Below, piece by piece: positions 225 to 64,000 of a stretch of DNA of 64,000 bases. The notes under the pieces are model-generated. The model did not search any database. It was not told the DNA's origin and was given only the letters and a program-made list of their open reading frames with translations. Numbering within the stretch: the stretch's first letter is position 1; the number at the start of each line of letters is the position of its first letter. The translations under genes and the position numbers were made by a program. This stretch comes from a bacterium (GTDB taxonomy: Bacteria; Armatimonadota; Fimbriimonadia; Fimbriimonadales; Fimbriimonadaceae): the NCBI GenBank assembly GCA_027485645.1, contig JAIXQR010000001.1:1-64000 (forward strand). The letters are read 5' to 3'.

Positions 225-1343
225 TTAGGCCGAGCCGCCGCGTTGGCGGCGGAGGAAGGTAGGTATGTCGAGGTCGATCTCGTCAAGATCGATTCGGGGC
301 GACATGGCGGTCACCGGGGCGGTGGTTGGCTCGCTGCCGGCATCGTAGAAAATCTCTCGATCTCGCGAGGTTCGCACCGTACCGGCGGAGCTGGTGCCCA
401 TTCCGGCGGCGAGCAAGGTCACCTGGACCTCGCCTTCGGCGTTATCTCGCAGCACGTGGCCCATGATGATGTCGGCGTCTTCCGAGTCGGTGAACTGGAG
501 GATGTACTCCATCGCCTCGTGGGCTTCTCCGATGCTGAAATCGGGACCGGCGGAGATGTTGACCAAAAGTCGCTTTGCGCCTTCAATGCTGGTTTCCAGC
601 AGCGGGGACGTCGCGGCGGCTTGGGCGGCCATCTTGGCGCGCTGCTCGCCGATGCCTCGGCCAAGGCCCATGAGGGCGATGCCGGCGTTGCTCATAACGC
701 TGCGGACGTCGGCGAAGTCGACATTGATGATTCCTGGGAAGAGGATGATGTCGGAAATGCCCTGAACGCCTTGACGCAGCACGTCATCCGCTGCGGCGAA
801 AGCCTGCTGCATCGTTGTGCGCTTGTCGACCACGCGGAGAAGTCGGTCGTTTGGAACGGTGATGAGGGTGTCGACTTGGCTCTGGAGCTTTGCGGCTCCG
901 TCTTCGGCAAGTCGTCGTCGTCGTGGGCCTTCGAAGATGAACGGCTTAGTGACTACGCCAACGGTGAGGATGCCGAGTTTGCGGGCCATTTCGGCGACCA
1001 CAGGGGCCGCGCCGGTGCCGGTTCCGCCGCCCATACCGGCGGTGATAAAGACCATGTCGCTGCCATCAAGAATCGCTTCGATGTCGCGCTCGCTCTCAAG
1101 GGCGGCTCGCTCGCCGATCTGAGGATCGCCACCGGCACCGAGGCCACGGGTGAGCTCATCGCCCAGTTGAAGCTTAACGTCGGCGCGGCTCTGGCTCAGG
1201 GCCTGCGCGTCGGTGTTCATGGTGACGAACTGCACGCCTTCAACGCCTTCGGCAATCATGCGGTTGACGGCGTTCGAACCGGCGCCACCCACGCCGATTA
1301 CTTTAATCGTTGCTTGACTCTCAAATAGATTTTCTGGTCGCAT
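225..1343 (-). CDS. ftsZ: Cell division protein FtsZ
   Basis: [16 protein letters not shown], the [16 protein letters not shown] tubulin signature, and the C-terminal DIPTFLRRQ peptide. Confidence 0.98.
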
Positions 1344-1424
1344 CGCTACTCAAAAACCAATAAGGCTCCATCGCCCCCGGATATGCCAAGGACGCCGTGC
1401 GAGGCCAAAAAGCGTCAGGAATTG

Positions 1425-2294
1425 CTAGTGAAGTCGCTCAATGCTGAAGCGAGCGAGGGCGCGAAGGGGTTCAACATCGCCGGGAAAGTCTTGCAGGCAG
1501 CCTTCGGCCTGGGCGGCTAGCTCTCGGGCCCTTGCCTTCGCGTCTTCGAGGCCATAGAGCGCGGGATAAGTTGCCTTTTTCCGCTCGGCGTCCGATCCCA
1601 CCGATTTGCCGGTCTGGCTCGGGTCGCCTTCCACGTTGAGAATATCGTCGGCAATTTGGAAGGCAAGTCCGATGTCCTCGCCAAACTCGTTTGCCTTCGC
1701 GACCAGCTCGGCCGGGGCGTCAGAAAGCAAGGCGCCGATGGCACAACTCGCCGAGATCAGCGCGCCGGTTTTGTTAATATGGATAAAGCGCAGGGTCTCG
1801 GGGTCGATCTCCTTTCCTTCGCTCAGAACATCGAGCATTTCGCCCTGGACCAGGCGCTTCACGGCGGCGGCAAGGGTCTGGCAAGCCGCCACGTTGCCGG
1901 TGGAGAGCATGATTTCGCCCGAAAGGGCAAAGAGGGCGTCTCCGGCGAGGATGGCGATGGCCTCGGTGAACTGTTTGTGGCAAGTCGGCCTTCCGCGACG
2001 CAGGTCGTCGTTATCAATGGCGGGAAGGTCGTCGTGAATCAGCGAGAAGGCGTGGACCATCTCGATGGCGCACGCGGCATCGAGGGCGACTCGGTCGTCT
2101 TTTCCGCAGGCGGTCGCGAAGGCGAGGCAGAGGATCGGGCGCACCCGCTTTCCGGGCGAAAGCGCGGCGTAGCGCATGGCCGCATGCAGCGGTCCGGGCG
2201 TTTCGGTTTCGGATGGCAAAAGCTCCGCCAGGCGGGCGTCAATTCGGTCCGAGATTTTCCGCCATTTTTCCACCCCTGCGTCTACGGTCGTCAT
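1425..2294 (-). CDS. ispA: Polyprenyl synthetase, farnesyl/geranylgeranyl diphosphate synthase type
   Basis: HDDLPAIDNDDLRRGRPTCHKQF (first Asp-rich motif) and FQIADDILNVEGD (second). Start taken at the internal ATG after a GAGG-like SD. Confidence 0.93.
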   Translation of the reverse strand: MTTVDAGVEKWRKISDRIDARLAELLPSETETPGPLHAAMRYAALSPGKRVRPILCLAFATACGKDDRVALDAACAIEMVHAFSLIHDDLPAIDNDDLRRGRPTCHKQFTEAIAILAGDALFALSGEIMLSTGNVAACQTLAAAVKRLVQGEMLDVLSEGKEIDPETLRFIHINKTGALISASCAIGALLSDAPAELVAKANEFGEDIGLAFQIADDILNVEGDPSQTGKSVGSDAERKKATYPALYGLEDAKARARELAAQAEGCLQDFPGDVEPLRALARFSIERLH

Positions 2295-2372
2295 CCTCGT
2301 TTCCTCACCCAAGTCCGAAAAGTCTACCGGTGACTTAGTCGTTGCGCGGCAATACTCGGTAAAGTCAAAAGA

Positions 2373-14512: not shown

Positions 14513-16048
14513 CTATCGCTCGTCTGGCAACACGATTCCCCGCATGATCACGTTCTGAGCCAGGAGGAACACGGCAAGCGTTGGCAGGGCGGCTAAGGTC
14601 AGAGCGGCCATCATCACCGACTTCGGCGCGAGGTTCTGCAACTGGTAAATCCAAACCATCAGCGTCCACATTTGCTGATCCTGGGCAATGAGGAACGCAT
14701 AAATGAACGCGCTGTAAGCGCTCATGAACGCGACAAGTGCCAGGTAACCCAGCACCGGCTTACTCAGCGGGAGCGCGATGCGGAGCATCATCATCGTTTC
14801 TTTCGCGCCGTCCAATTGTCCCGCTTCGAACAGTTCTTGCGGAAGCGAATCGAAGAAGCCCTTCAGAAGGAAGATCATGTAGCCGCTGGCGGCGGTTGGC
14901 AGCACCAGCGCGGCAAAGGTGTTCAGTAGTCCAAGATCCTTGAGCAACAGGAACGATGGGATCATCGCGACCTCGGCCGGAAACGCCATGGTCGCCAAAA
15001 GGAAGATCAGAATTTGCCCGGACTGCCGAACCGGGTAGCGCGATAGCGCATAGGCCGCAAGCGGATTGACGATGAGCTGAGTGGCGATTGCGAGCAAGCA
15101 GAAGAACGCGGTATTCCAAACCGTCCGGCCGTTCAGCAAGATGTAGTCGAGCACGTACTCAAAGTTCCGCGTGACAAACCCACGCCGAATGGCCATTTGA
15201 TTCGATTCGACAAAGATCCGATCTGCCGCGCCAATGGGCAGAACTCCGGGAAATTCTCGGCCCCAAAGTGATTCAGTCGCCCCCGCCTCGTACCGGGCCG
15301 GGAGAGCTTTTTGCCGAAACTCCGTCATCAGCGGATGCAACCGAATCACCGGCAGCTTTTCGAAAGCGTCCGCTCCCGCCGTTAGCTCGACGGGCACCGC
15401 GCTGAACTGATTGCGAAACTTGCCGCGCACAAACTCTTGCCACATCCGCTGTTCCCGAACTGGGATTCGGAACGAAGCGGGCAACGTTGCCTTGAATTCG
15501 CGCCACTCTTTGTACTTTCGGGTGTCCGGCGGGAACCAGGATTTCCGCTCAAGCATCTCCGCCGGCGGCGTCACGGTTTGAAAAGCAACATTCTCTTCGA
15601 TGTAGGCCAGGTTCAGCTTCTCGATGTTGTTGCCGTACTTTTCTCTGAGCCAGTTTTGGTACCGAACCTGGAGCTTGCTCGTCACCTGGTTGGGGGCCGT
15701 TTTGAACCCGGCCGTCCACATATCAAGCGGCAACTGACGCAGAAAACGGTCATACGCCGCTACCACCTCGGGGCCGGACTTCTCTCCGATGGCGTTCGAA
15801 GTCATGAGCGCCGCATCGCCCGAGTACCTGTCGTCCAGATACTTCTTTTGTAGCGCACCCGTGTCGACCAAATACGGTGGAATGATCTCGGTGCCGTTCT
15901 GGTCAAAGGAGCCCTTGATGGCGGTCGAGACCATCAACAAGAATGGATAAAGGGTAGTGATCGCGCCGAGAGTGAGGAGCGCATAAACAAGCGCCATCGC
16001 AAGACGCGACTTGAAGCGGTTTCGCCCGACTTTTCCAACCAGGCTCAT
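14513..16048 (-). CDS. Carbohydrate ABC transporter permease (MalG-type) with a large insertion after TM1
   Basis: C-terminal half contains EAGQLDGAKETMMMLRIALPLSKPVLG (EAA loop) and typical binding-protein-dependent transport helices. Confidence 0.9.
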   Translation of the reverse strand: MSLVGKVGRNRFKSRLAMALVYALLTLGAITTLYPFLLMVSTAIKGSFDQNGTEIIPPYLVDTGALQKKYLDDRYSGDAALMTSNAIGEKSGPEVVAAYDRFLRQLPLDMWTAGFKTAPNQVTSKLQVRYQNWLREKYGNNIEKLNLAYIEENVAFQTVTPPAEMLERKSWFPPDTRKYKEWREFKATLPASFRIPVREQRMWQEFVRGKFRNQFSAVPVELTAGADAFEKLPVIRLHPLMTEFRQKALPARYEAGATESLWGREFPGVLPIGAADRIFVESNQMAIRRGFVTRNFEYVLDYILLNGRTVWNTAFFCLLAIATQLIVNPLAAYALSRYPVRQSGQILIFLLATMAFPAEVAMIPSFLLLKDLGLLNTFAALVLPTAASGYMIFLLKGFFDSLPQELFEAGQLDGAKETMMMLRIALPLSKPVLGYLALVAFMSAYSAFIYAFLIAQDQQMWTLMVWIYQLQNLAPKSVMMAALTLAALPTLAVFLLAQNVIMRGIVLPDER

Positions 16049-52244: not shown

Positions 52245-53003
52245 ATGTCGTTCCAAGCCGTTCTCTTTGACCTCGATGGCACGCTCTACCGTGGCGACGA
52301 GGTCATTGAGGGCTCTGCCCCGGCGGTCCAGCGGTTGGTTGACGCTGGTATCAAAGTTGCCTACGTCACGAACAACTCCACTCAAACACGGCAGTTTTTC
52401 AGCGACAAGCTAGAACGCATGGGCTTCGTGTGCTCTCCTGAGTTGGTGTACGGGACGGCTTATGGTGCGGTGCGGGAAGCGGCGAAGCGCGGCCTTTCGC
52501 GCATTGCGGTGGTGGGTGAACCAGGCCTAAAGGAATCGCTCGCTGAAGCCGGGAGCGTGATCGTTGATTTTGACGAGCAGCCGGAGGCGGTGATCGTTGG
52601 GCTTTGCCGAACGTTCACTTACGACCTCATGAAGTCTGCGATGGCGGCGATCCGCGGTGGGGCATTCTTTATCGCGACCAATGAGGACGCGACGTTTCCG
52701 GTCGAAGGGGGCGGCTTTATTCCCGGCGCCGGTAGCGTGGTAGCGGCGGTTAAGACCTGCAGCCAAACGGAACCGTTTGTGATTGGCAAGCCAAATCCGA
52801 ATCTGATTCAGCTTGCGATGGCCGATCTTGGCGTGTCACCCGAGGAAACGCTGGTGGTCGGCGACCGGCTGGATACGGACATCGAGGCCGGCATCCGCGC
52901 GGGATGTACGGTGCATTTGGTGCTTACGGGAGTTGAATCGGAAGCCCCGGAAGGGTTGCCATTCACCTACAACGTCGCCGCCCTAGTTGAGCAGATTCTT
53001 TAG
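52245..53003 (+). CDS. HAD-IIA family hydrolase (NagD/PGP-like)
   Basis: AVLFDLDGTLYRGDEVIEGS; VTNNSTQTRQFFSDKLERMG; IGKPNPNLI; VVGDRLDTDIEAG. Confidence 0.94.
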   Translation: MSFQAVLFDLDGTLYRGDEVIEGSAPAVQRLVDAGIKVAYVTNNSTQTRQFFSDKLERMGFVCSPELVYGTAYGAVREAAKRGLSRIAVVGEPGLKESLAEAGSVIVDFDEQPEAVIVGLCRTFTYDLMKSAMAAIRGGAFFIATNEDATFPVEGGGFIPGAGSVVAAVKTCSQTEPFVIGKPNPNLIQLAMADLGVSPEETLVVGDRLDTDIEAGIRAGCTVHLVLTGVESEAPEGLPFTYNVAALVEQIL

Positions 53004-56000
53004 ACAGAAGCCGTTTCTTTGGATTCTCGCACCGCGAGATGCGCTACTTCGGACACGTATCGATCTCGCTGTTCCTTCTCTAGGGTTCTCCAGGTCAGGA
53101 ACTGCCTTCGCAGGTTTGCCAGGAATCGACGGTTCACGGTGGGCCAGTTCTCCGGGTCTCCGGCAAGTCGGTTGAGCTTGAGATCCAGCACGTAAACGCC
53201 CTTGACTTGGCTCGGCGCGAGCGTAAGGGTCAAGCGCTGGGAAATGCCCAGGTCGTAAGGGGCAAGCCACATTGCGCAGCTCACTTCGTACGCCGGGGGA
53301 ACAACACCAGGCAGTCGGCACGAATCAGTGTCTCGACTCACGAAGTCGCCGATGGTGAATCCTTCGAACGCCTTCAACCATTCGGTCAAAAAGACAGTCA
53401 GCGGACCGGCTTCAGCGGCAGAGATGCTAAACGGCAGGGGCAACAGCCATTCGTCGCCTTCTGGCTCGGTGTTGAAGACCTCGTCGTTCATGGCAGGAGC
53501 CGCGATCTGAGCCGCCTTTCTCGCGGGGAAGATTGTGCTGAGAAGCACAACTCCCATCACGATGACGGCGGACATAACGGCGCTGGTAGAACTGAAGTTG
53601 AGGGTCAGTCCTGGAAGCGCACCGGTAGCGACAATGACCTTCGCTGAGCCCTGGGCGACGTAATAGCCGATGACGGCCCCGAGCACCCCGTACACGAGGG
53701 ATTCGGCGAAGAACAGCATCGCAATATGGTTCGGCGCGAGTCCAATCGCGCTGAAAATGCCGATTTCTTTGGTCCGCTCGTAAACGCTCGCGATCATCGT
53801 GTTAAGCACGAACACGCTGGCGATGAGAAGCTGAACGATGATCAGTCCTAGGCCGGTGCTCTTGGACGCGGCGAAGATTGAGAACTGCTTGACTTCAAGT
53901 TCGCTTGCGCCCTCCGCCTTCGGCACCGAGGCGTATACGTTAAGTCGAAGTCGGGGCATCAGGTCCACCAGTGCGGCCCGAGTGGCGGCCGGGTCATTGA
54001 ACTGCACGGCGACGGTTCGAAGTTCGGCACCCTGAGAGAATGCCGTGTCGGTTGGCACAATGAAGATGCTGCCGGGGTCAAGCCGCAGGTAGCTGCGGAA
54101 TGCTTGGGTGCTGCTTGCGGTTTGCTCTTGGTACCGCTTGGAAAGGCTGAAATCGGGCGGCATGAAGCCATCGCCATCGAGATCGGTGATGCTGCGCAGG
54201 ATACCGGCGTCGGCAATACCGATTACGGTGTATTGCGTTCCGGCGTAGTTCACCTTCGCACGACCGACTTCATTGTTGGCGATCTTGAGTTGCTCAGCCA
54301 AAGGCTGCGGAAGGATGACGACATTTCGGTCGCCGCGGCGGAACCATCGACCGCCGGGAAGCAGTGCCTTTTGAGGTTGAAGGACCTTCTCTTCCTCCGG
54401 GTCCAGCCCCATCATGGCTCGAACTTCGGCGACGCGGTCGGCGCGTTGCAACGTGAGGACGCCGGTATCGCCGATGTCCGCGCCGTAGTAGAAGGCCCTT
54501 CGGACCACGGTTCCACGCGTACCGAACTCGTTGGCAATCGTTCGGTAAGTCCCCAACTGAAGCGGTTCAAGACCGGGTGTTCGGACAAGTAGGCCGGGGT
54601 AATTCGCTTTGTTTGGGCTCGGGGCTTCGTTCAGCGAGAGATCCGCCACGATGCTTGTGAAGCTCAGAACAATGAAGGTCATCACGACCAGGGTCAGTGT
54701 GGTGAGGATCGTCCTCGCCTTACGTCGGCGCATGTTGCTGACGCCGAGGTTAAAGGCTGCCATTGCAACGCTAGACCGCTTGATATCGACATCGTGAACG
54801 CCGCTTTGGGTCGCGCGAATCGCCTTCATGGAGTTTTCGAACTTGCCGAGGATGAAGGAGATGACGATGAGACTTAAAACGCCCATCACGAACGCCACAA
54901 AGATCATCGACGGGTTCTGTACGATTTCGAAGGCGGGGTGAATCAATCGCAGCAGAATGAACGAGCCAATGAAGATTCCGATCGAAGCGAGCAATTGCTT
55001 GATCAGAAGTTGGTTTCCTATCATCAAGCGTTCAACAAAGTAGCTGAACGGGATGAGCAGGAAGAGATAGAACACCACGCCGTTCACGACGTCGTTGGCG
55101 GTGCTCATGATGACCGGGTGCGCCCGAAGGGCAAAGCCCCAAGCCGCGCGGCTGTGGCGCTGGGCTTCGGCCCAGTTCTTCTGCAACAGCGATTCCTCCG
55201 CGGCTTTGGCCTCTTTCACCGCGCTTTCGTGGAGGTCTCGAATCCCCGGGCTAATGATTCGGTACTTGAAGAACCGATCCAGTCGCGTCTGGTTAATCGC
55301 GATAATGTCGTTCGCCGTGGTCAGTGCGGTGTTGGGGAAGAGGTACTGATCGTCGGCGGGTGAAGTCGGCGGGCTCGTGTCCTTGCCGCCTGGAGCGCGA
55401 AAACCAAGACCTTCCTCGTTGCCGACCTTAGAGTTGGTCAGGATGAGCCGGTTCTCGTCGTTACCACCGAGCAATATGTATCGCTGGCCGGGAGTGAGAA
55501 ACACCACTTGCGAGTCCTCGATTTCGGCCGTCAGTCGCTGGTCGAACGGCGGGAGGAACACGCCAAAGTCTTGTGGCATTGAGCCGCTTCTGGCATCGGT
55601 GGGCATGATGCGACGAAGGGCACGGAGTTCCTGCGGATCAGTCAGACCAAAGACGTCGATGGCGACGCAAGGGAAGACAACGATCGGAGATTGGCGATCG
55701 GGGGACTTGAGCTGGAAGAAGATTCGGAACTGGAAGTCGCCGTAGAAGCCGAGCGAGGCCGCATGGTCGATCCGGCCGGTCGCATCGTCGATTCGAAAAG
55801 CCGCGATTCGGTTTCGCGGGGGATCAATCGGGCCGTAGGAGTTAATGGTCGGGATGCCGATGAATCGGTAATCCGCTTTGTTACCGACCGTGCTTTGAAT
55901 CATGTCTCCGCGCACGCCCATGAGGGTGGTTTGGCGCGCGAGATAGGTCGCAAGCGTTCCCGGAACCGGCTCGTCGGGCACGAAACTTCGAGTTGGATCG

Positions 56001-57520
56001 AAGGAGACGACTTGCCCGTGGAGTTTTCCGAATCCGCCAATGAGCCGCATGCCCGATGGACGGGCCGGGGCCAACGGAACCTTGTGGTCAGATGACTCCG
56101 TCTGGTCGGTCGTGTCGTTCAGCACGTGGTGCAGCATGCAGGCGAGCGTCTGCACTTGCCGAGTTACGTTGCCAAAGTCGATCTGCGATACCGTATCAAA
56201 GGGGGTATCGACGTTCGGACGGCTGTCTTCTACCGTGATGAAGGAGAGGGCGTTTAGGCCGCCAAGCACCATCGGCTCAGCATCGACGGCAAACTTGCCG
56301 CTGATGTTATTTTTCCAAGTTCGGCTGTCCCCGTTGTTGGTCCCATCAATCAGTACAAGGCGCGCCGGAGTAACGCCCATTTCGAGCGCGACGCGGTCCG
56401 CGTGGGCGCGGAAGATGCGGGACATGCTCCGCATTTGGTCAACAAGTTCGTCCCGAAACTCATAGAACCAGCCTCTGGCGTAGCTTCCGATCGTCGGAGC
56501 GCCAGAACTGATGTCTAAGCTAAGGGTGAGAAAAGGTGGCTGCTCGTTCGACTCGAGGTAGTGCTGGACGTACTCTCGAGCGCCGATCAGGGCGAGTCCG
56601 TGACCTCCGCTAATGACAACTCGAAGGGGTCGAGCGTGGGGAGTCTTGGTATAAATCCGCGCGACTTCGAGCGCTCCGGCAATTCCACCGATGGCTTCGG
56701 CACCAGGAGCCGCTCCAGGAACCACCGACATTGCGTCGGCATTGGCGTAGACCGCGATGACTTCGTTTGCTCGCTTGGCGTCGGTACCGGGAAAGTCGGC
56801 GGTGATGACTTGGCTTTTGGCGTTGACCCAACGCTGGTCGCATTTAAGGGTCGCGACTTCATTTTTCTGGGCCGCTCGTAGGACCTCCCCGGCGTTCTTC
56901 AGTGGAAGATAGAAGCGGGGGACGGAAAGCGGGACCCCGCTAAACTTCTGTTCGGCTTCGGTTCGACTTGGGACGTCGGGCTGAAGAAAGATGATCGCCT
57001 TTGCGCCGAGGGTTGCGGCGTTTCGCCAGCGAATCCCAGAGTTGAACTCGACAACGACGATTGAGCCCTTGACGTCTTTCCCGTTCAGGTCTTCGAGCGA
57101 CCCGGATTTGGCGAAGAGGATTGGTCCGGAGACATCACAGGTCGAGGTGCGAACCAGGTTTGGCCACATCGGCAAAACCGTGATCGGCTTCTGGTTGATC
57201 GTCAGCGTTCCCTTTGCGGTTGGATCGGGAATCGTGACGTTGAATTCGCGCTTCTTGACTTGTGTCGCGCCCAACTCGGAAAGCCGATTTGCGGCGAAGT
57301 CGAAGGTTTGCCGTTCCCCCTCGGATCCGGTCAGTCGAGAGCCGAATCCGCTCACCGTCTGATAGGTCTGTTTGATGCCAGGCGCGCTGACCTGATCGAT
57401 CAGGCCGCGATAGGTCGTACGAATTTCGGCTTCGGTGGGCGCTGGGCTAGCGAGGGACGCAAGGAGGCCAAGAGCGCCTACGCAGGCGAGGCGCCATCCA
57501 CGATGAGGGAGCCGAAGCAC
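53000..57520 (-). CDS. Fusion of a secreted M28-peptidase-like (apparently catalytically degenerate) domain with an FtsX/MacB-type ABC permease
   Basis: Signal-peptide-like N-terminus; M28/PA-like region (FGSRLTGSEGERQTFDFAANRL...); C-terminal FtsX region (NLGVSNMRRRKARTILTTLTLVVMTF ... MIASVYERTKEIGIFSAIGLAPNHIAMLFFAESLVYGVLGAVIGY). Confidence 0.85.
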   Translation of the reverse strand: MLRLPHRGWRLACVGALGLLASLASPAPTEAEIRTTYRGLIDQVSAPGIKQTYQTVSGFGSRLTGSEGERQTFDFAANRLSELGATQVKKREFNVTIPDPTAKGTLTINQKPITVLPMWPNLVRTSTCDVSGPILFAKSGSLEDLNGKDVKGSIVVVEFNSGIRWRNAATLGAKAIIFLQPDVPSRTEAEQKFSGVPLSVPRFYLPLKNAGEVLRAAQKNEVATLKCDQRWVNAKSQVITADFPGTDAKRANEVIAVYANADAMSVVPGAAPGAEAIGGIAGALEVARIYTKTPHARPLRVVISGGHGLALIGAREYVQHYLESNEQPPFLTLSLDISSGAPTIGSYARGWFYEFRDELVDQMRSMSRIFRAHADRVALEMGVTPARLVLIDGTNNGDSRTWKNNISGKFAVDAEPMVLGGLNALSFITVEDSRPNVDTPFDTVSQIDFGNVTRQVQTLACMLHHVLNDTTDQTESSDHKVPLAPARPSGMRLIGGFGKLHGQVVSFDPTRSFVPDEPVPGTLATYLARQTTLMGVRGDMIQSTVGNKADYRFIGIPTINSYGPIDPPRNRIAAFRIDDATGRIDHAASLGFYGDFQFRIFFQLKSPDRQSPIVVFPCVAIDVFGLTDPQELRALRRIMPTDARSGSMPQDFGVFLPPFDQRLTAEIEDSQVVFLTPGQRYILLGGNDENRLILTNSKVGNEEGLGFRAPGGKDTSPPTSPADDQYLFPNTALTTANDIIAINQTRLDRFFKYRIISPGIRDLHESAVKEAKAAEESLLQKNWAEAQRHSRAAWGFALRAHPVIMSTANDVVNGVVFYLFLLIPFSYFVERLMIGNQLLIKQLLASIGIFIGSFILLRLIHPAFEIVQNPSMIFVAFVMGVLSLIVISFILGKFENSMKAIRATQSGVHDVDIKRSSVAMAAFNLGVSNMRRRKARTILTTLTLVVMTFIVLSFTSIVADLSLNEAPSPNKANYPGLLVRTPGLEPLQLGTYRTIANEFGTRGTVVRRAFYYGADIGDTGVLTLQRADRVAEVRAMMGLDPEEEKVLQPQKALLPGGRWFRRGDRNVVILPQPLAEQLKIANNEVGRAKVNYAGTQYTVIGIADAGILRSITDLDGDGFMPPDFSLSKRYQEQTASSTQAFRSYLRLDPGSIFIVPTDTAFSQGAELRTVAVQFNDPAATRAALVDLMPRLRLNVYASVPKAEGASELEVKQFSIFAASKSTGLGLIIVQLLIASVFVLNTMIASVYERTKEIGIFSAIGLAPNHIAMLFFAESLVYGVLGAVIGYYVAQGSAKVIVATGALPGLTLNFSSTSAVMSAVIVMGVVLLSTIFPARKAAQIAAPAMNDEVFNTEPEGDEWLLPLPFSISAAEAGPLTVFLTEWLKAFEGFTIGDFVSRDTDSCRLPGVVPPAYEVSCAMWLAPYDLGISQRLTLTLAPSQVKGVYVLDLKLNRLAGDPENWPTVNRRFLANLRRQFLTWRTLEKEQRDRYVSEVAHLAVRESKETASV

Positions 57521-57560: not shown

Positions 57561-58436
57561 TCAGTTCAAATCCCACTTGTACACGGCGGAATTCTGGATG
57601 AAGCCCTGCCAATTCGCTTGGAAGTTGCAGCCGCGGGTGAGGTCGCTTGGCGAGAAAGATCGGACCGAGCCGTCAAGCATGGCAACCGTCATTCGACCGG
57701 TGTGCCAAGTCCAAGCGCCGCCGTACCGGAATTCAACATTTTCGGAGCCGCCTTCCCAGCCACGAGATGGCGTGTAGACCTCGGTATTGCCTGCAGAGGA
57801 GCCAGTAAACGTATCCACGGCGCGACCGATTGGGTCCGCCGAATATCGGCACGGAGGCACGACGAGCCAGCTTCCTCCGATCACTTGTCCGGTGATGGCG
57901 TCTTGAACGGCCGAATCGACGAAAAGGATCGTATTGGCGCTGGACTGAATATCGAACTGGCTGCGGGTGCGAGCCGCCCATCCGGTCCTTTCGCGCACAA
58001 CCGGGCTCAAATACTGAAAGTTGTAACCGAGGTTGACCTTCTGTGAGGCCGTGTAGTACCGGGAGCTCGTGTCACCGGCCACCAGGTCGGCGTCGAAGGT
58101 TGATGCGACGACCGATTTACCGGTTCGGTTTTCTGGGCAGAAGAACTGGTCAAACCCGGGGCGGTACGGCAAAAGGAGCTGTACCCAGGTCCGGTCATTC
58201 TGTGAGCTCGGGGTGCCGCCCACTTGATGATTGATTGGCAAGTACCGCTGATCGTAGTCGTCGGTGTAAATCAGCGTCGCTTGCGATACTTGCTTAAACT
58301 GGCTGGCGCACTGAGTTGAATGGGCACGAGCTTTTGCCGAGGCGAAGACAGGGAACAACACTCCCGCGACAACTAGCAAGATGGCGAGAACTACAAGCAA
58401 CTCAACAAGCGTAAAAGCTCGACGTACCATGGGCAC
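57561..58436 (-). CDS. Prepilin-type N-terminal cleavage/methylation protein (DUF1559-like)
   Basis: MPMVRRAFTLVELLVVLAILLVVAGVLFPVFASAK; VAMLDGSVRSFSPSDL. Confidence 0.9.
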   Translation of the reverse strand: MPMVRRAFTLVELLVVLAILLVVAGVLFPVFASAKARAHSTQCASQFKQVSQATLIYTDDYDQRYLPINHQVGGTPSSQNDRTWVQLLLPYRPGFDQFFCPENRTGKSVVASTFDADLVAGDTSSRYYTASQKVNLGYNFQYLSPVVRERTGWAARTRSQFDIQSSANTILFVDSAVQDAITGQVIGGSWLVVPPCRYSADPIGRAVDTFTGSSAGNTEVYTPSRGWEGGSENVEFRYGGAWTWHTGRMTVAMLDGSVRSFSPSDLTRGCNFQANWQGFIQNSAVYKWDLN

Positions 58437-58447
58437 TGGTTTCTATA

Positions 58448-59185
58448 TTACAGCAACTCTGGCCGAATCTTGGGGTCAATTGTATAAACCGTTAGGCTGC
58501 TAACTTCGGAGAATCCGAGGCTCTTGTACCAAGCACCAAGGTTATAGTCGCACTGTAATATTACGGGGTTTTCGCTTGCGGCAACTCGAATACGACGGAC
58601 TAAATCGCGCCCAAAACCTTTGTTTCTTTTCGAAGCCCCAACGCATAAATTGTAGACACCTACGGTTTCTGCGTTGTAATGCATTAACGCGGTAGATACG
58701 ACCGCGCCATCGGTTAGTTGGCCGACTGCCGGGATTCCACTATTACAAATAGCGTTACGAATAGCCCCTTGCTCGGCAAGCCCGTACCTTTGGAAGAAGG
58801 TTTCGATCATCAAGTTTGCGGCGGCAAGCACATCTATCGGACTGATCGGCTCCGTTTCAAAATCCGGCACTGGCCCGATGGCGGGGGCAGCCATTTGTAA
58901 CATTCGGTAGGAGGGCTGAAATCCGGCCCGCCGGAGCATTTCATTCACCGGAGCCGTTGGGATGGCGTAGAGGTGAAAAACCGAGCGCTGCGCCGCATGT
59001 CGCGCGAACATGCCGGCATCGTTGCTGTTCAGGTTGCGGATGACCGCGAAATTGGCGACGGGATGGTTCACCGCGCCCTCGCAGAACAAGTAGTCGTCGG
59101 TCTCGGTGAGGCTGCCTTCGGCAGCGGCTCCGAGAGCGCGAAAAGTCGCCAACAGGTTGTCAAACCCGATTGGGAACTCTGGCAT
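58448..59185 (-). CDS. GNAT-family N-acetyltransferase
   Basis: VYNLCVGASKRNKGFGRDLVRRIRVAASENPVILQCDYNLGAWYKSLGFSEVSSLTVYTI; TAATG overlap with the upstream gene. Confidence 0.82.
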   Translation of the reverse strand: MPEFPIGFDNLLATFRALGAAAEGSLTETDDYLFCEGAVNHPVANFAVIRNLNSNDAGMFARHAAQRSVFHLYAIPTAPVNEMLRRAGFQPSYRMLQMAAPAIGPVPDFETEPISPIDVLAAANLMIETFFQRYGLAEQGAIRNAICNSGIPAVGQLTDGAVVSTALMHYNAETVGVYNLCVGASKRNKGFGRDLVRRIRVAASENPVILQCDYNLGAWYKSLGFSEVSSLTVYTIDPKIRPELL

Positions 59186-60402
59186 TAGAGAACGGTGCTC
59201 CACAACAGACCGACTCCGATGCGCTTTTCGCTCGCATTGAAGCCGACGCTGAAGCCACTACCGATCTGCCGATGGAGCCAGATTCGTGGCCCTCGGGGAG
59301 AAATGAAGAGCGTGGCCAGATTGCGTCGGGCGTTGTCGAATGCCCAAAGATCAAGGCCCGCCCCGATCTCAAATCCGCTGGAGAGTTCGGCGCCCAGGCC
59401 AATTCGGATCGTCGGGGCATAGATGCGCGATGGCGGCGAGTACGTTCGTCCCGAGAATTTGGCGTCAAAGAAGGCGGCGGTCTCGCGCAGGAGTCGCCGC
59501 TGAACGAAGATGCCCCCGTAGTGACCGGTGTCAATGCTCAGCGTCTGGATGCCCGGCATTTTCTCGATCAGGGCGTCAGAACTCGACTTCGGGATGACGG
59601 TGTCGAACTTTCCGACAACGACAAACGAGTTTCCGGGCTCGGTCCGCGGCAGGAAGTTCGCTGGTTCAACGCTCGAAAGCTCCTGTCGCAGTTTCTCCTC
59701 GGTGAACCCCTTTGCCCGTAGTTCATCGCGTTGCACGACGACGCGGGACGAGGACCACAGGATGTTGGCTAGCTCGATGCCGCCGAGAATGAAGGCAACG
59801 TTCTTCACGCGAGGCTCGACCGCGTACGTGAGGGCGCTGACAATGGCGCCGAGGCTCGTGCCCGCAATTCCGATTTTGTTCGCATCGAACTCTGACCGCG
59901 TCGTGAGAAAGTCGATTGTGCGGCGGAGGTCTTGGACAGCCTGGTAAGTCGTTGCGCGGAGCGCGACCGGGTCGGGCTGAATGGCAAGCGCTCCAGATCT
60001 CACGCCAGCTGGTGTTCGCTGCAAGTGGTAAGGAAGGGTCACCACGGCGCTCGCTATGTTTCGGCTGGCCAGTTCCTGCGCCAAAGAAACTTCGGCGCGT
60101 AGATCAACCGCGCCCCAGTAGTGAGAAATGACGACGATGGGTACTGGACCTCGGCGGTCCGGCGGAACAAAGATTCGAACCGGGATGGTGTCGTTTTCTC
60201 GCACGCCGGATGGTGCGGCGGTTGGTAGGCCAACGTTGTACTCGGTGGCCCATTCGTACTCCCCGACCATTCGCCAGTTCTGGAAGTCAATTTTTGCCGG
60301 AGGAATCGTGATATCCGGCGTGCTAGCCGCAGGAGACGGCTGGGCAGCACCGAGTGCAGTCAGCACAAGGGCGGTGAGACAGAGCCAACCTCTCCAAAGC
60401 AT
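59185..60402 (-). CDS. Secreted alpha/beta-hydrolase family protein
   Basis: Signal peptide; VPIVVISHYWGAVDLRAEVSLAQELASRNIASAVVTLPYH; GIAGTSLGAIVSAL nucleophile elbow; DTGHYGG. Confidence 0.86.
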   Translation of the reverse strand: MLWRGWLCLTALVLTALGAAQPSPAASTPDITIPPAKIDFQNWRMVGEYEWATEYNVGLPTAAPSGVRENDTIPVRIFVPPDRRGPVPIVVISHYWGAVDLRAEVSLAQELASRNIASAVVTLPYHLQRTPAGVRSGALAIQPDPVALRATTYQAVQDLRRTIDFLTTRSEFDANKIGIAGTSLGAIVSALTYAVEPRVKNVAFILGGIELANILWSSSRVVVQRDELRAKGFTEEKLRQELSSVEPANFLPRTEPGNSFVVVGKFDTVIPKSSSDALIEKMPGIQTLSIDTGHYGGIFVQRRLLRETAAFFDAKFSGRTYSPPSRIYAPTIRIGLGAELSSGFEIGAGLDLWAFDNARRNLATLFISPRGPRIWLHRQIGSGFSVGFNASEKRIGVGLLWSTVL

Positions 60403-61921: not shown

Positions 61922-64000
61922 TTAGCGCAAGAAGTTGAAGGTCAGTTCGATGTCTAGCCCACGGGATCGATAGTTACCGCTGGTAAGGGTGGCGTCGGTA
62001 TTTGAAACGTCCCGAAATCGGTACAGCGCTTGGAGGCCGATGTTGCGGAAGATTCGGTACTCGTAACCGACGGTTGCAATCTGCTCGAGCTGACCGTAGT
62101 AGCCCGAGGATCGGGCGTTTGTGAGGGCAAAAATGAGTCGATTTCGGTCGTTCATGCGGTAGCCCATGCTCAACTCGTAGCTCAATGAGTCCTGACCAAA
62201 TTGGCTCGTACCTCCGCTACTTAGCGCCCCGGCGAGGATGGCGGCAAAGTTCAGCCGTCCGGGAGGTGATCCGGAGAGACCGACAGTGTATGACGTGCCC
62301 TTAACCGCATTGGTCAACCCGGTGCCGTAAGACGTGTCGGTCTGGTCGAGCGAGAGGCTGAAAAGGGTTTGCCGTCCAAGGTCCCATTCGACGCCGGCAC
62401 CGTAGGCCCGAGTCTCACTGTTTGAACTCAGATCACCAAACGAGCCGGTTTGGTAAGCGCGGAGGCTGAGGTTGAATCGATCCGACGCGCGATGCGAAAT
62501 CTGAGTTTGGAAACTTCGCAGCGTGGTGTTTCCAAGGTTGATGGAGTCTCCAAGCCCACCGCTGCTGAAGCCGTTCCCGCCATAACCGATTCCAGCGCCG
62601 GAGTTCAGGTTGCCAAGGGTGGAAATCGAGCCGGAGTTGCTGTTGATGTAGGACGTCGAGACACTCCAGCGGTCGGTTGGCTGCCACTCGGCACCAATGC
62701 TGACGTCCGTTCCGTCACTGTTTTCCCCATCGCGGTCGATTTTGGAGAGGCTCGCCCTGGAAGAGACGCGGAAGTTCTTCGACGCATCCCATTGAAGGCC
62801 CGTTCGGAAGGACTGCAGCGCGACGCTTACGATTTCTGGGGTGCTCGAAGCGGAGGACGTGGGTCCGGTGGCGGACTGATTTTCCACCGCGAAGTTTGCG
62901 GATACGCGTCCGAACTGCTTAGATGCGGTGATGCTGGTGGTGTCGAGGGCGGAATCAGACTGGAGCCGATTTCGGATTCGGGAGTGTTCCAGGCCCCACT
63001 GCATGCCGTCGACTTCTCGATATCGGGCCGAGCCGGTGGTGGTCGTGAATCGGTTAAGACGAGTTTCGGTCGCGCCGTTCACGGTCTGGCGCGTGGTGAC
63101 GAGAGAGTTTTGGGTTCGGACGCCATAGCCCCAGGCTCCCAGGTTGTATTCCAGCCCGAGTTCGGTTGCCTTTTCGTTTCGGTTGAATCCTCGGGACTCG
63201 ATGCTCACGAACTCCGCCGGGATGTCTCGTACGCCGCCGGTGAAATTGAACGGTCCCTTGCGATACTGCCAGTCGGCGCCTTGAGCAACTCCGCCGATGC
63301 CGTCGCTGGTCGCATCGCCCCGCGCTTGGCTGAGCTTGAAATAGCCAAGATCGGTCTTACGTCCGGACTTGGCGTCAGTTTTAACAAACGGGAGGAGCCA
63401 ATCGACCCCAGTTACGCGCCGGTCACCGGTTACGGTCTGAATCACCTTGGGGCGATAGGTTGCGGCGACCGTTTGGGACGGATCGATGTACCGCGTCATG
63501 TAAAAGCGCCGAGGGTAGGCGGCATCAAAATTGAAGTCAACGCCCTGGATTTGTATAATTGCGCCAACGCGAATTTGTACGGTTCCAGGAATCGGTTCGT
63601 AGTCGAGGTCGTAGCCGACGGTCGGGACGCCTTGTCCTTGGAACAGCTCAATCTTGCTACTGGCCGAGCTGGCGCCGCTTCCAACTTGCTCCATCAGGCT
63701 CGCGCCGATCGTGCCAAATTTGCCGAAGTTGTAGGCTATGCCGGCTCCCTGGATCGTGCCGGTTTGTTCGTTGAACGCGGCCGACTCGTAGGTCGCCACG
63801 ATGACCGACGTTGGCGAGATGATCCGATTGATGAAGGTGATCGCGCCGAGGTCCGAATCCAGCTCGTAATCAGTGCCTAGCCTTACGGTCTCTCCGTTAA
63901 CCTGTACTTCGATGGTGTCGGGTCGGATACGGCCGCTTTGCAGGTAGTACGGCCCGGAGGAGTTGTTGCCGGAGATGCTTACCGTGCGGGCCGCGCCGCG
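61922..64000 (-). CDS. Large outer-membrane beta-barrel protein with SprA-like repeat motifs, 5' end beyond the window
   Basis: The frame stays open from 63799 to the window edge (RGAARTVSISGNNSSGPYYLQSGRIRPDTIEVQVNGETVRLGTDYELDSDLGAITFINRIISPTSVIVATYES...); alternating beta-strand pattern; C-terminal DIELTFNFLR. Confidence 0.82.
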   Translation of the reverse strand, partial: RGAARTVSISGNNSSGPYYLQSGRIRPDTIEVQVNGETVRLGTDYELDSDLGAITFINRIISPTSVIVATYESAAFNEQTGTIQGAGIAYNFGKFGTIGASLMEQVGSGASSASSKIELFQGQGVPTVGYDLDYEPIPGTVQIRVGAIIQIQGVDFNFDAAYPRRFYMTRYIDPSQTVAATYRPKVIQTVTGDRRVTGVDWLLPFVKTDAKSGRKTDLGYFKLSQARGDATSDGIGGVAQGADWQYRKGPFNFTGGVRDIPAEFVSIESRGFNRNEKATELGLEYNLGAWGYGVRTQNSLVTTRQTVNGATETRLNRFTTTTGSARYREVDGMQWGLEHSRIRNRLQSDSALDTTSITASKQFGRVSANFAVENQSATGPTSSASSTPEIVSVALQSFRTGLQWDASKNFRVSSRASLSKIDRDGENSDGTDVSIGAEWQPTDRWSVSTSYINSNSGSISTLGNLNSGAGIGYGGNGFSSGGLGDSINLGNTTLRSFQTQISHRASDRFNLSLRAYQTGSFGDLSSNSETRAYGAGVEWDLGRQTLFSLSLDQTDTSYGTGLTNAVKGTSYTVGLSGSPPGRLNFAAILAGALSSGGTSQFGQDSLSYELSMGYRMNDRNRLIFALTNARSSGYYGQLEQIATVGYEYRIFRNIGLQALYRFRDVSNTDATLTSGNYRSRGLDIELTFNFLR

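Follow-up and report, generated by a model that had tools for sequence, protein, structure and literature searches.

A giant FtsX/MacB-type permease bearing a non-canonical M28-like domain, and its conserved operon partners

The giant permease gene and its domain anatomy

The window analyzed here, the whole stretch of 64,000 nucleotides, carries on its minus strand a long gene whose product joins a PA and M28-like peptidase domain to an FtsX/MacB-type permease; we refer to this protein as the giant. The gene and the parts of its product are arranged as follows.

53000..57520, minus strand: giant pseudo-M28/FtsX permease gene, an intact open reading frame of 1506 aa with a GTG start
57428..57520, minus strand: signal-peptide-like N terminus, aa 1-31 (sequence reading)
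56126..57388, minus strand: PA and M28-like domain, aa 45-465 (PDB profile, 1.6e-25; Foldseek 2ek8, 5e-25, and 6hc6, 1.1e-23)
55331..56125, minus strand: beta-rich periplasmic region, aa 466-730 (DSSP of the AF2 model)
54803..55174, minus strand: three extra transmembrane helices preceding the FtsX core, aa 783-906 (AF2 model and hydropathy)
53492..54721, minus strand: FtsX/MacB-type core, aa 934-1343, with TM1, a MacB-like periplasmic core domain, and TM2-4 (PF02687; Foldseek MacB)
53042..53452, minus strand: C-terminal alpha/beta domain, aa 1357-1493, predicted to be cytoplasmic (AF2 model)

Comparison with the closest orthologue, which is 96% identical, gave dN 0.026 and dS 1.36 across the gene and dN 0.029 and dS 1.69 in the M28-like domain; the dN/dS of ~0.02 in both cases marks the open reading frame as a gene under constraint, not a product of chance. 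As a single-protein query against genome contigs the giant retrieved only two close relatives. Neither it nor the OPT-like protein described below matched any of 72,556 plasmids searched, and a profile scan of IMG/VR contigs confirmed no relative. Upstream of the gene, the minus-strand interval 57561-60402 holds a pilin-like (N_methyl/DUF1559) gene, which ends ~40 bp from the giant, a GNAT-like gene, and an alpha/beta hydrolase with weak similarity to the RcgR lactone-hydrolase; homologues of these genes lie on the same strand upstream of the giant in 6 to 9 related loci. A 625-aa open reading frame at 61922-63799, also on the minus strand, gave no significant Pfam or NCBIfam match.

A Pfam scan of the giant alone placed FtsX above its cut-off (PF02687, 4e-14) and PA (0.001) and M28 (0.003) below theirs, and it detected no nucleotide-binding domain (NBD). 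Searched against the PDB with phmmer, the giant matched the M28 aminopeptidases YwaD/BSAP (5.5e-12) and 2ek8, and a profile built from 35 orthologues matched 2ek8 with the value listed above, together with nicalin and the transferrin receptor. The AF2 model of aa 26-850 (pLDDT 91.3, pTM 0.87) retrieved 2ek8 and BSAP (6hc6) in Foldseek, and Peptidase_M28 was matched at E<=0.01 in all 24 long homologues scanned one by one. By profile and by AF2/Foldseek an M28 fold is present, which bears out the PA/M28-like domain proposed in an earlier sequence-only reading of this DNA. The FtsX/MacB-type membrane domains that this reading had seen fused behind it are likewise recovered: Foldseek with the C-terminal half returned MacB (5gko, 7.6e-12) and the periplasmic domain of MacB (3ftj, TMt 0.58), and a MacB_PCD match occurs in 17 of the 24 homologues. 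The model of this half (aa 540-1506, pLDDT 83.7) also contains an alpha hairpin between the beta-rich region and the three extra transmembrane helices, while the C-terminal alpha/beta domain has no Pfam match and belongs to no known family. Hydropathy gives seven transmembrane helices, and the predicted topology has the N terminus outside and the C terminus inside. NCBIfam FtsX models score the giant at 22-27 bits, compared with cut-offs of 225-255, and by this measure the giant is not an FtsX orthologue. In the giants of two relatives (L066 and L069), the M28-like domain contains a hydrophobic, TM-like insertion at about query aa 325-340.

The zinc and catalytic positions of the M28-like domain

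The positions that bind zinc or catalyze hydrolysis in M28 enzymes were mapped by profile alignment to 2ek8/YwaD, with the first three motifs also compared with an intact M28 peptidase of a relative (L063), and were tabulated for 76 full or near-full orthologues, all from the phylum. The four motifs that the sequence-only reading had quoted are each found in the translation of the gene. The principal positions are the following.

56696..56743, minus strand: position of the canonical HxDS...GANDNASG, aa 260-275; here NADA...PGAE, in the family YxDS...PGA[E/D] (76-sequence table)
56600..56602, minus strand: His307 at the catalytic-Glu position (His in 76/76; profile alignment and 76-sequence table)
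56513..56515, minus strand: Asp336, the kept zinc-ligand Asp (76/76; profile alignment and 76-sequence table)
56207..56209, minus strand: Asp438 at the zinc-ligand His of YHTxxDT (Asp in 75/76, Glu in 1/76; profile alignment and 76-sequence table)

The five-ligand set of M28 enzymes, H, D, E, D, H, is not found in the giant family. The zinc His of the HxD motif, at residue 260 and Asn in the giant studied here, is Tyr in 65 of the 76 orthologues, Phe in 5, Asn in 3, and Pro, His, or Ser in one each, and the HxD Asp next to it is kept in all 76. The bridging Asp is Glu in 64 and Asp in 12, with Glu in the giant studied here, and the second zinc Glu is Phe in 55 and otherwise varied (Gly or others). 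Trp402, Glu415, Arg434, Asp442, and Asp392 are invariant as well. For giants of a second phylum whose sequences span this region, the corresponding positions read YYD(S/A), PGA[D/E/Q], H, D, and DTPxD, with Asn replacing Asp392.

The invariance of the His and Asp replacements across the family points to replacement and not to random decay; as far as the alignments tell, the canonical zinc site is not decayed but exchanged for another conserved set of residues. No intact zinc ligands at shifted positions were seen in the profile alignment to M28. The survey of orthologues for ligand loss thus shows the canonical zinc and catalytic residues replaced across the family, and the claim that the ligands and the catalytic Glu are gone stands for the canonical set, but not for the zinc Asp, D336, which is kept. 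Similarly, the GAnDnaSG motif that had been read as lost has its bridging Asp replaced by Glu in the giant and occupied by either Glu or Asp across the family. The description of the domain as a dead peptidase is not borne out in that form: with an invariant His for the catalytic Glu and an almost invariant Asp for the last His ligand, it is not simply dead. The module would not be a canonical zinc aminopeptidase, and it may have lost peptidase activity.

A six-gene operon, its distribution, and the partners of the giant

In deeper relatives the giant is the first of six genes on one strand, followed by genes for an OPT-like membrane protein of ~665 aa, a ~300-aa protein that we label WQG, a PqqD-fold protein, a mini-FtsX of ~200-240 aa without a periplasmic domain, and a LolD/MacB-type ATPase with a PF00005 match. 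By our count all six genes occur in that order at 27 loci of the phylum, and they recur in the same order and strand at a locus outside it (L273); a variant order, mini-ATPase-giant-OPT, is found at L240, L243-L245, and L247. The OPT assignment is weak, as PF03169 is matched by only 2 of 27 members, at best with 2.2e-6. The PqqD-fold partner in the giant's own genome matches PF05402 at 6e-13, with 49.4 bits against a cut-off of 23.4. Peptide binding by this fold in PQQ/RiPP systems is described in one study (PMC7470986), and the fold by itself is no proof of peptide binding in this system. The recurrent operon genes include neither a MacA-type adaptor nor a wall hydrolase. At one locus (L063), the gene immediately downstream of the operon's ATPase gene encodes an M28 peptidase whose AHYD, ADDD, and GEE motifs are canonical (870-2306, minus strand; Peptidase_M28, 1.3e-37).

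In the lineage of the giant, at the level of its order, the system is divided among three loci, and the giant's own genome contains all six components on three contigs. WQG, PqqD, mini-FtsX, and ATPase genes are closely packed at ~666-669 kb of one contig (C1), and the OPT-like gene stands alone at 415 kb of another (C6). The ATPase encoded on C1 shares 69% identity with its operon counterpart in a relative (L068) and carries GPSGSGKS (Walker A) and LSGGQQQR motifs. No ABC ATPase neighbors the giant gene, either in the window or at most of the copies from its taxonomic order. Hence the earlier remark that no ATPase is adjacent is true locally but misleading, the ATPase being encoded in trans in the same genome; a survey for LolD/FtsE-type partners, suggested with that remark, found the LolD/MacB-type ATPase in the operon of relatives. 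The impression of an orphan permease does not hold either, given the operon in relatives and the presence of the ATPase, mini-FtsX, PqqD, WQG, and OPT-like genes elsewhere in the genome.

Within the phylum, the giant is present in 192 and the OPT-like protein in 196 of 291 genomes. Both occur in 186, the giant alone in 6, the OPT-like protein alone in 10, and neither in 89; these are raw genome counts that include shared ancestry. The mismatched genomes are mostly, though not all, incomplete assemblies: the OPT-like protein occurs without the giant in G067 (96% complete), G138 (95%), and G196 (99%), and the giant without the OPT-like protein in G139 (97%). In the bacterial family from which the window comes, the two are present in an identical set of 15 genomes. 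Among 101 relatives, 45 have the giant, 51 the OPT-like protein, and, by our reading, 46 strong mini-FtsX matches. Outside the phylum, 3 of ~106 genomes have the OPT-like protein; a search for the giant in 80 of the ~106 found it in exactly these three. Of the three, G327 has all six genes, G364 has no recognized WQG, and the remaining one belongs to the second phylum.

In the second phylum the giant is present in 82 of 85 genomes. These giants measure ~2340-2560 aa; a LysM domain precedes their PA region, and their M28-like domain is enlarged by long inserts. Of the 24 long giants, 7 gave a LysM match, as did three other giants from the second phylum; LysM was seen only in the long giants of this phylum and is absent from the 1506-aa giant. 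In the second phylum LysM would link the M28-like module to the cell wall. The gene order there is giant-OPT-WQG-PqqD-ATPase, without mini-FtsX, indicating that mini-FtsX is not universally required or is replaced in that phylum. In one second-phylum operon (L282), an open reading frame with an RRXRR domain (IscB/IsrB-like; 15010-16035; PF14239, 1.5e-31) lies between the PqqD and ATPase genes, preceded by a subthreshold HEARO RNA match (E 0.001), and is probably a mobile element.

Proposed complex, alternatives, and related systems

The domain anatomy, the conserved substitutions, the operon, and the co-occurrence were computed here. Collectively they favor, with a probability that we put at about 0.62, the reading in which six components form a type VII (FtsX/MacB/LolC-like) ABC complex with a non-canonical ligand-binding module, the giant being its large permease subunit. 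The association of ATPase and permease is drawn from synteny and co-occurrence, and the dispersal of the genes in the giant's own lineage counts against a complex. From these data we infer a physical complex and its coupling to ATP. A mechanotransmission complex with a peptidase-derived sensing or binding module, which the sequence-only reading had offered as a possibility, is still the best description once the module is taken as non-canonical.

In type VII ABC proteins, the binding and hydrolysis of ATP drive motion in the periplasm; YbbAP-TesA is an example that works with a periplasmic hydrolase (PMC12646458). By analogy, the LolD/MacB-type ATPase would drive the pair formed by the giant and the mini-FtsX, which lacks the periplasmic core domain (PCD). 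The MacB-like periplasmic domain would relay the motion to the M28-fold and beta-rich module in the periplasm, so that movement of the pair would open or close the M28-like module. LysM in distant homologues, the OPT-like transporter, and the PqqD fold together suggest a peptide or wall-derived ligand, and the re-tooled, conserved pocket most likely would bind a ligand of this type. The OPT-like transporter, the PqqD-fold protein, and WQG might handle it at or inside the membrane. More tentatively, and with some doubt, the system may be an undescribed type VII ABC machine of six components in which the M28-fold module, LysM-anchored in one lineage, captures peptides or wall fragments and ATP-driven motion hands them to the OPT-like transporter and the PqqD-fold carrier.

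A competing possibility, which we regard as rather doubtful, is an FtsEX-like wall regulator, in which the giant would attach to peptidoglycan and pass force generated with ATP on to wall enzymes, OPT and PqqD playing only regulatory roles. The type VII fold would suit this, as would the LysM domains and long M28-like domain inserts of the second-phylum giants; however, the recurrent operon genes lack a wall hydrolase, the 1506-aa giant lacks LysM, and the OPT-like transporter in the operon suggests a ligand that is transported. It is unlikely that the M28-like domain works as an enzyme through a rewired site, for example with one metal on Glu275, His307, Asp336, and Asp438, and cleaves some uncommon substrate, for instance a wall peptide, under gating by the ABC part. 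The replaced positions are as invariant as catalytic ones (His307 and Asp336 76/76, Asp438 75/76, with Glu415 and Arg434 also 76/76), and a His/Asp/Glu set could bind metal, but the Tyr and Phe replacements take one ligand away from each canonical zinc site, and the profile also matched binding-only M28-fold pseudo-enzymes (transferrin receptor, nicalin). An orphan FtsX permease without an ATPase, with the co-occurring genes coincidental, would fit the lack of a neighboring ABC ATPase; it is very improbable in view of the collinear operon across the phylum and beyond, the tight co-occurrence of the giant with OPT, and the trans-encoded partners, among them the ATPase 69% identical to an operon ATPase. 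A decaying fusion with a peptidase half under relaxed constraint, to which the missing canonical zinc and catalytic residues might have pointed, is refuted by the dN/dS within the M28-like domain (dN 0.029, dS 1.7) and by the invariant replacing residues.

These results show that the ABC family known from cell division, the export of lipoproteins, and the efflux of drugs includes a conserved branch to which a repurposed peptidase has been fused. That two thirds of the genomes of one little-studied phylum, and nearly all those sampled of another, carry this branch suggests an important envelope function there. An apparent orphan permease thereby becomes a testable complex of six genes, for which operon, co-occurrence, and site conservation give direct predictions. 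No publication on the six-gene system was found among open-access papers searched with the component names combined. The individual parts are of known kinds; what is new is their combination and the re-tooled site.

Among the closest known systems is YbbAP-TesA of E. coli, a type VII ABC system whose periplasmic hydrolase is separate and active (PMC12646458). Both combine an FtsX-type permease and a MacB/LolD-type ATPase with a periplasmic hydrolase-fold protein, but in the giant this fold is M28, covalently fused, and has a non-canonical site, and its system adds OPT-like, PqqD-fold, and mini-FtsX partners. With MacB and LolC the giant shares the transmembrane core, the MacB-like periplasmic core domain, and a MacB/LolD-type ATPase. 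It differs from them in its ~900 extra N-terminal residues, in that just one of its system's two permeases contains a periplasmic core domain, and in that its recurrent operon genes include no MacA-like adaptor, LolA, or fused NBD; the absence of a fused NBD and of a recurrent adaptor also sets it apart from MacAB-TolC. FtsEX resembles the system in its type VII transmembrane fold and, possibly, in a wall link through the LysM of distant homologues, although the giant, as noted, falls far below the FtsX cut-offs.

The PA and M28 folds are those of the M28 aminopeptidases (YwaD/BSAP, 2ek8), from which the giant differs in its replaced zinc and catalytic residues. Nicalin, nicastrin, and the transferrin receptor are non-catalytic M28-fold proteins. 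They resemble the giant's module in serving as binding or scaffold modules, and two of them, nicalin and the transferrin receptor, were matched by the giant profile; all three differ in being eukaryotic and in having unrelated membrane partners.
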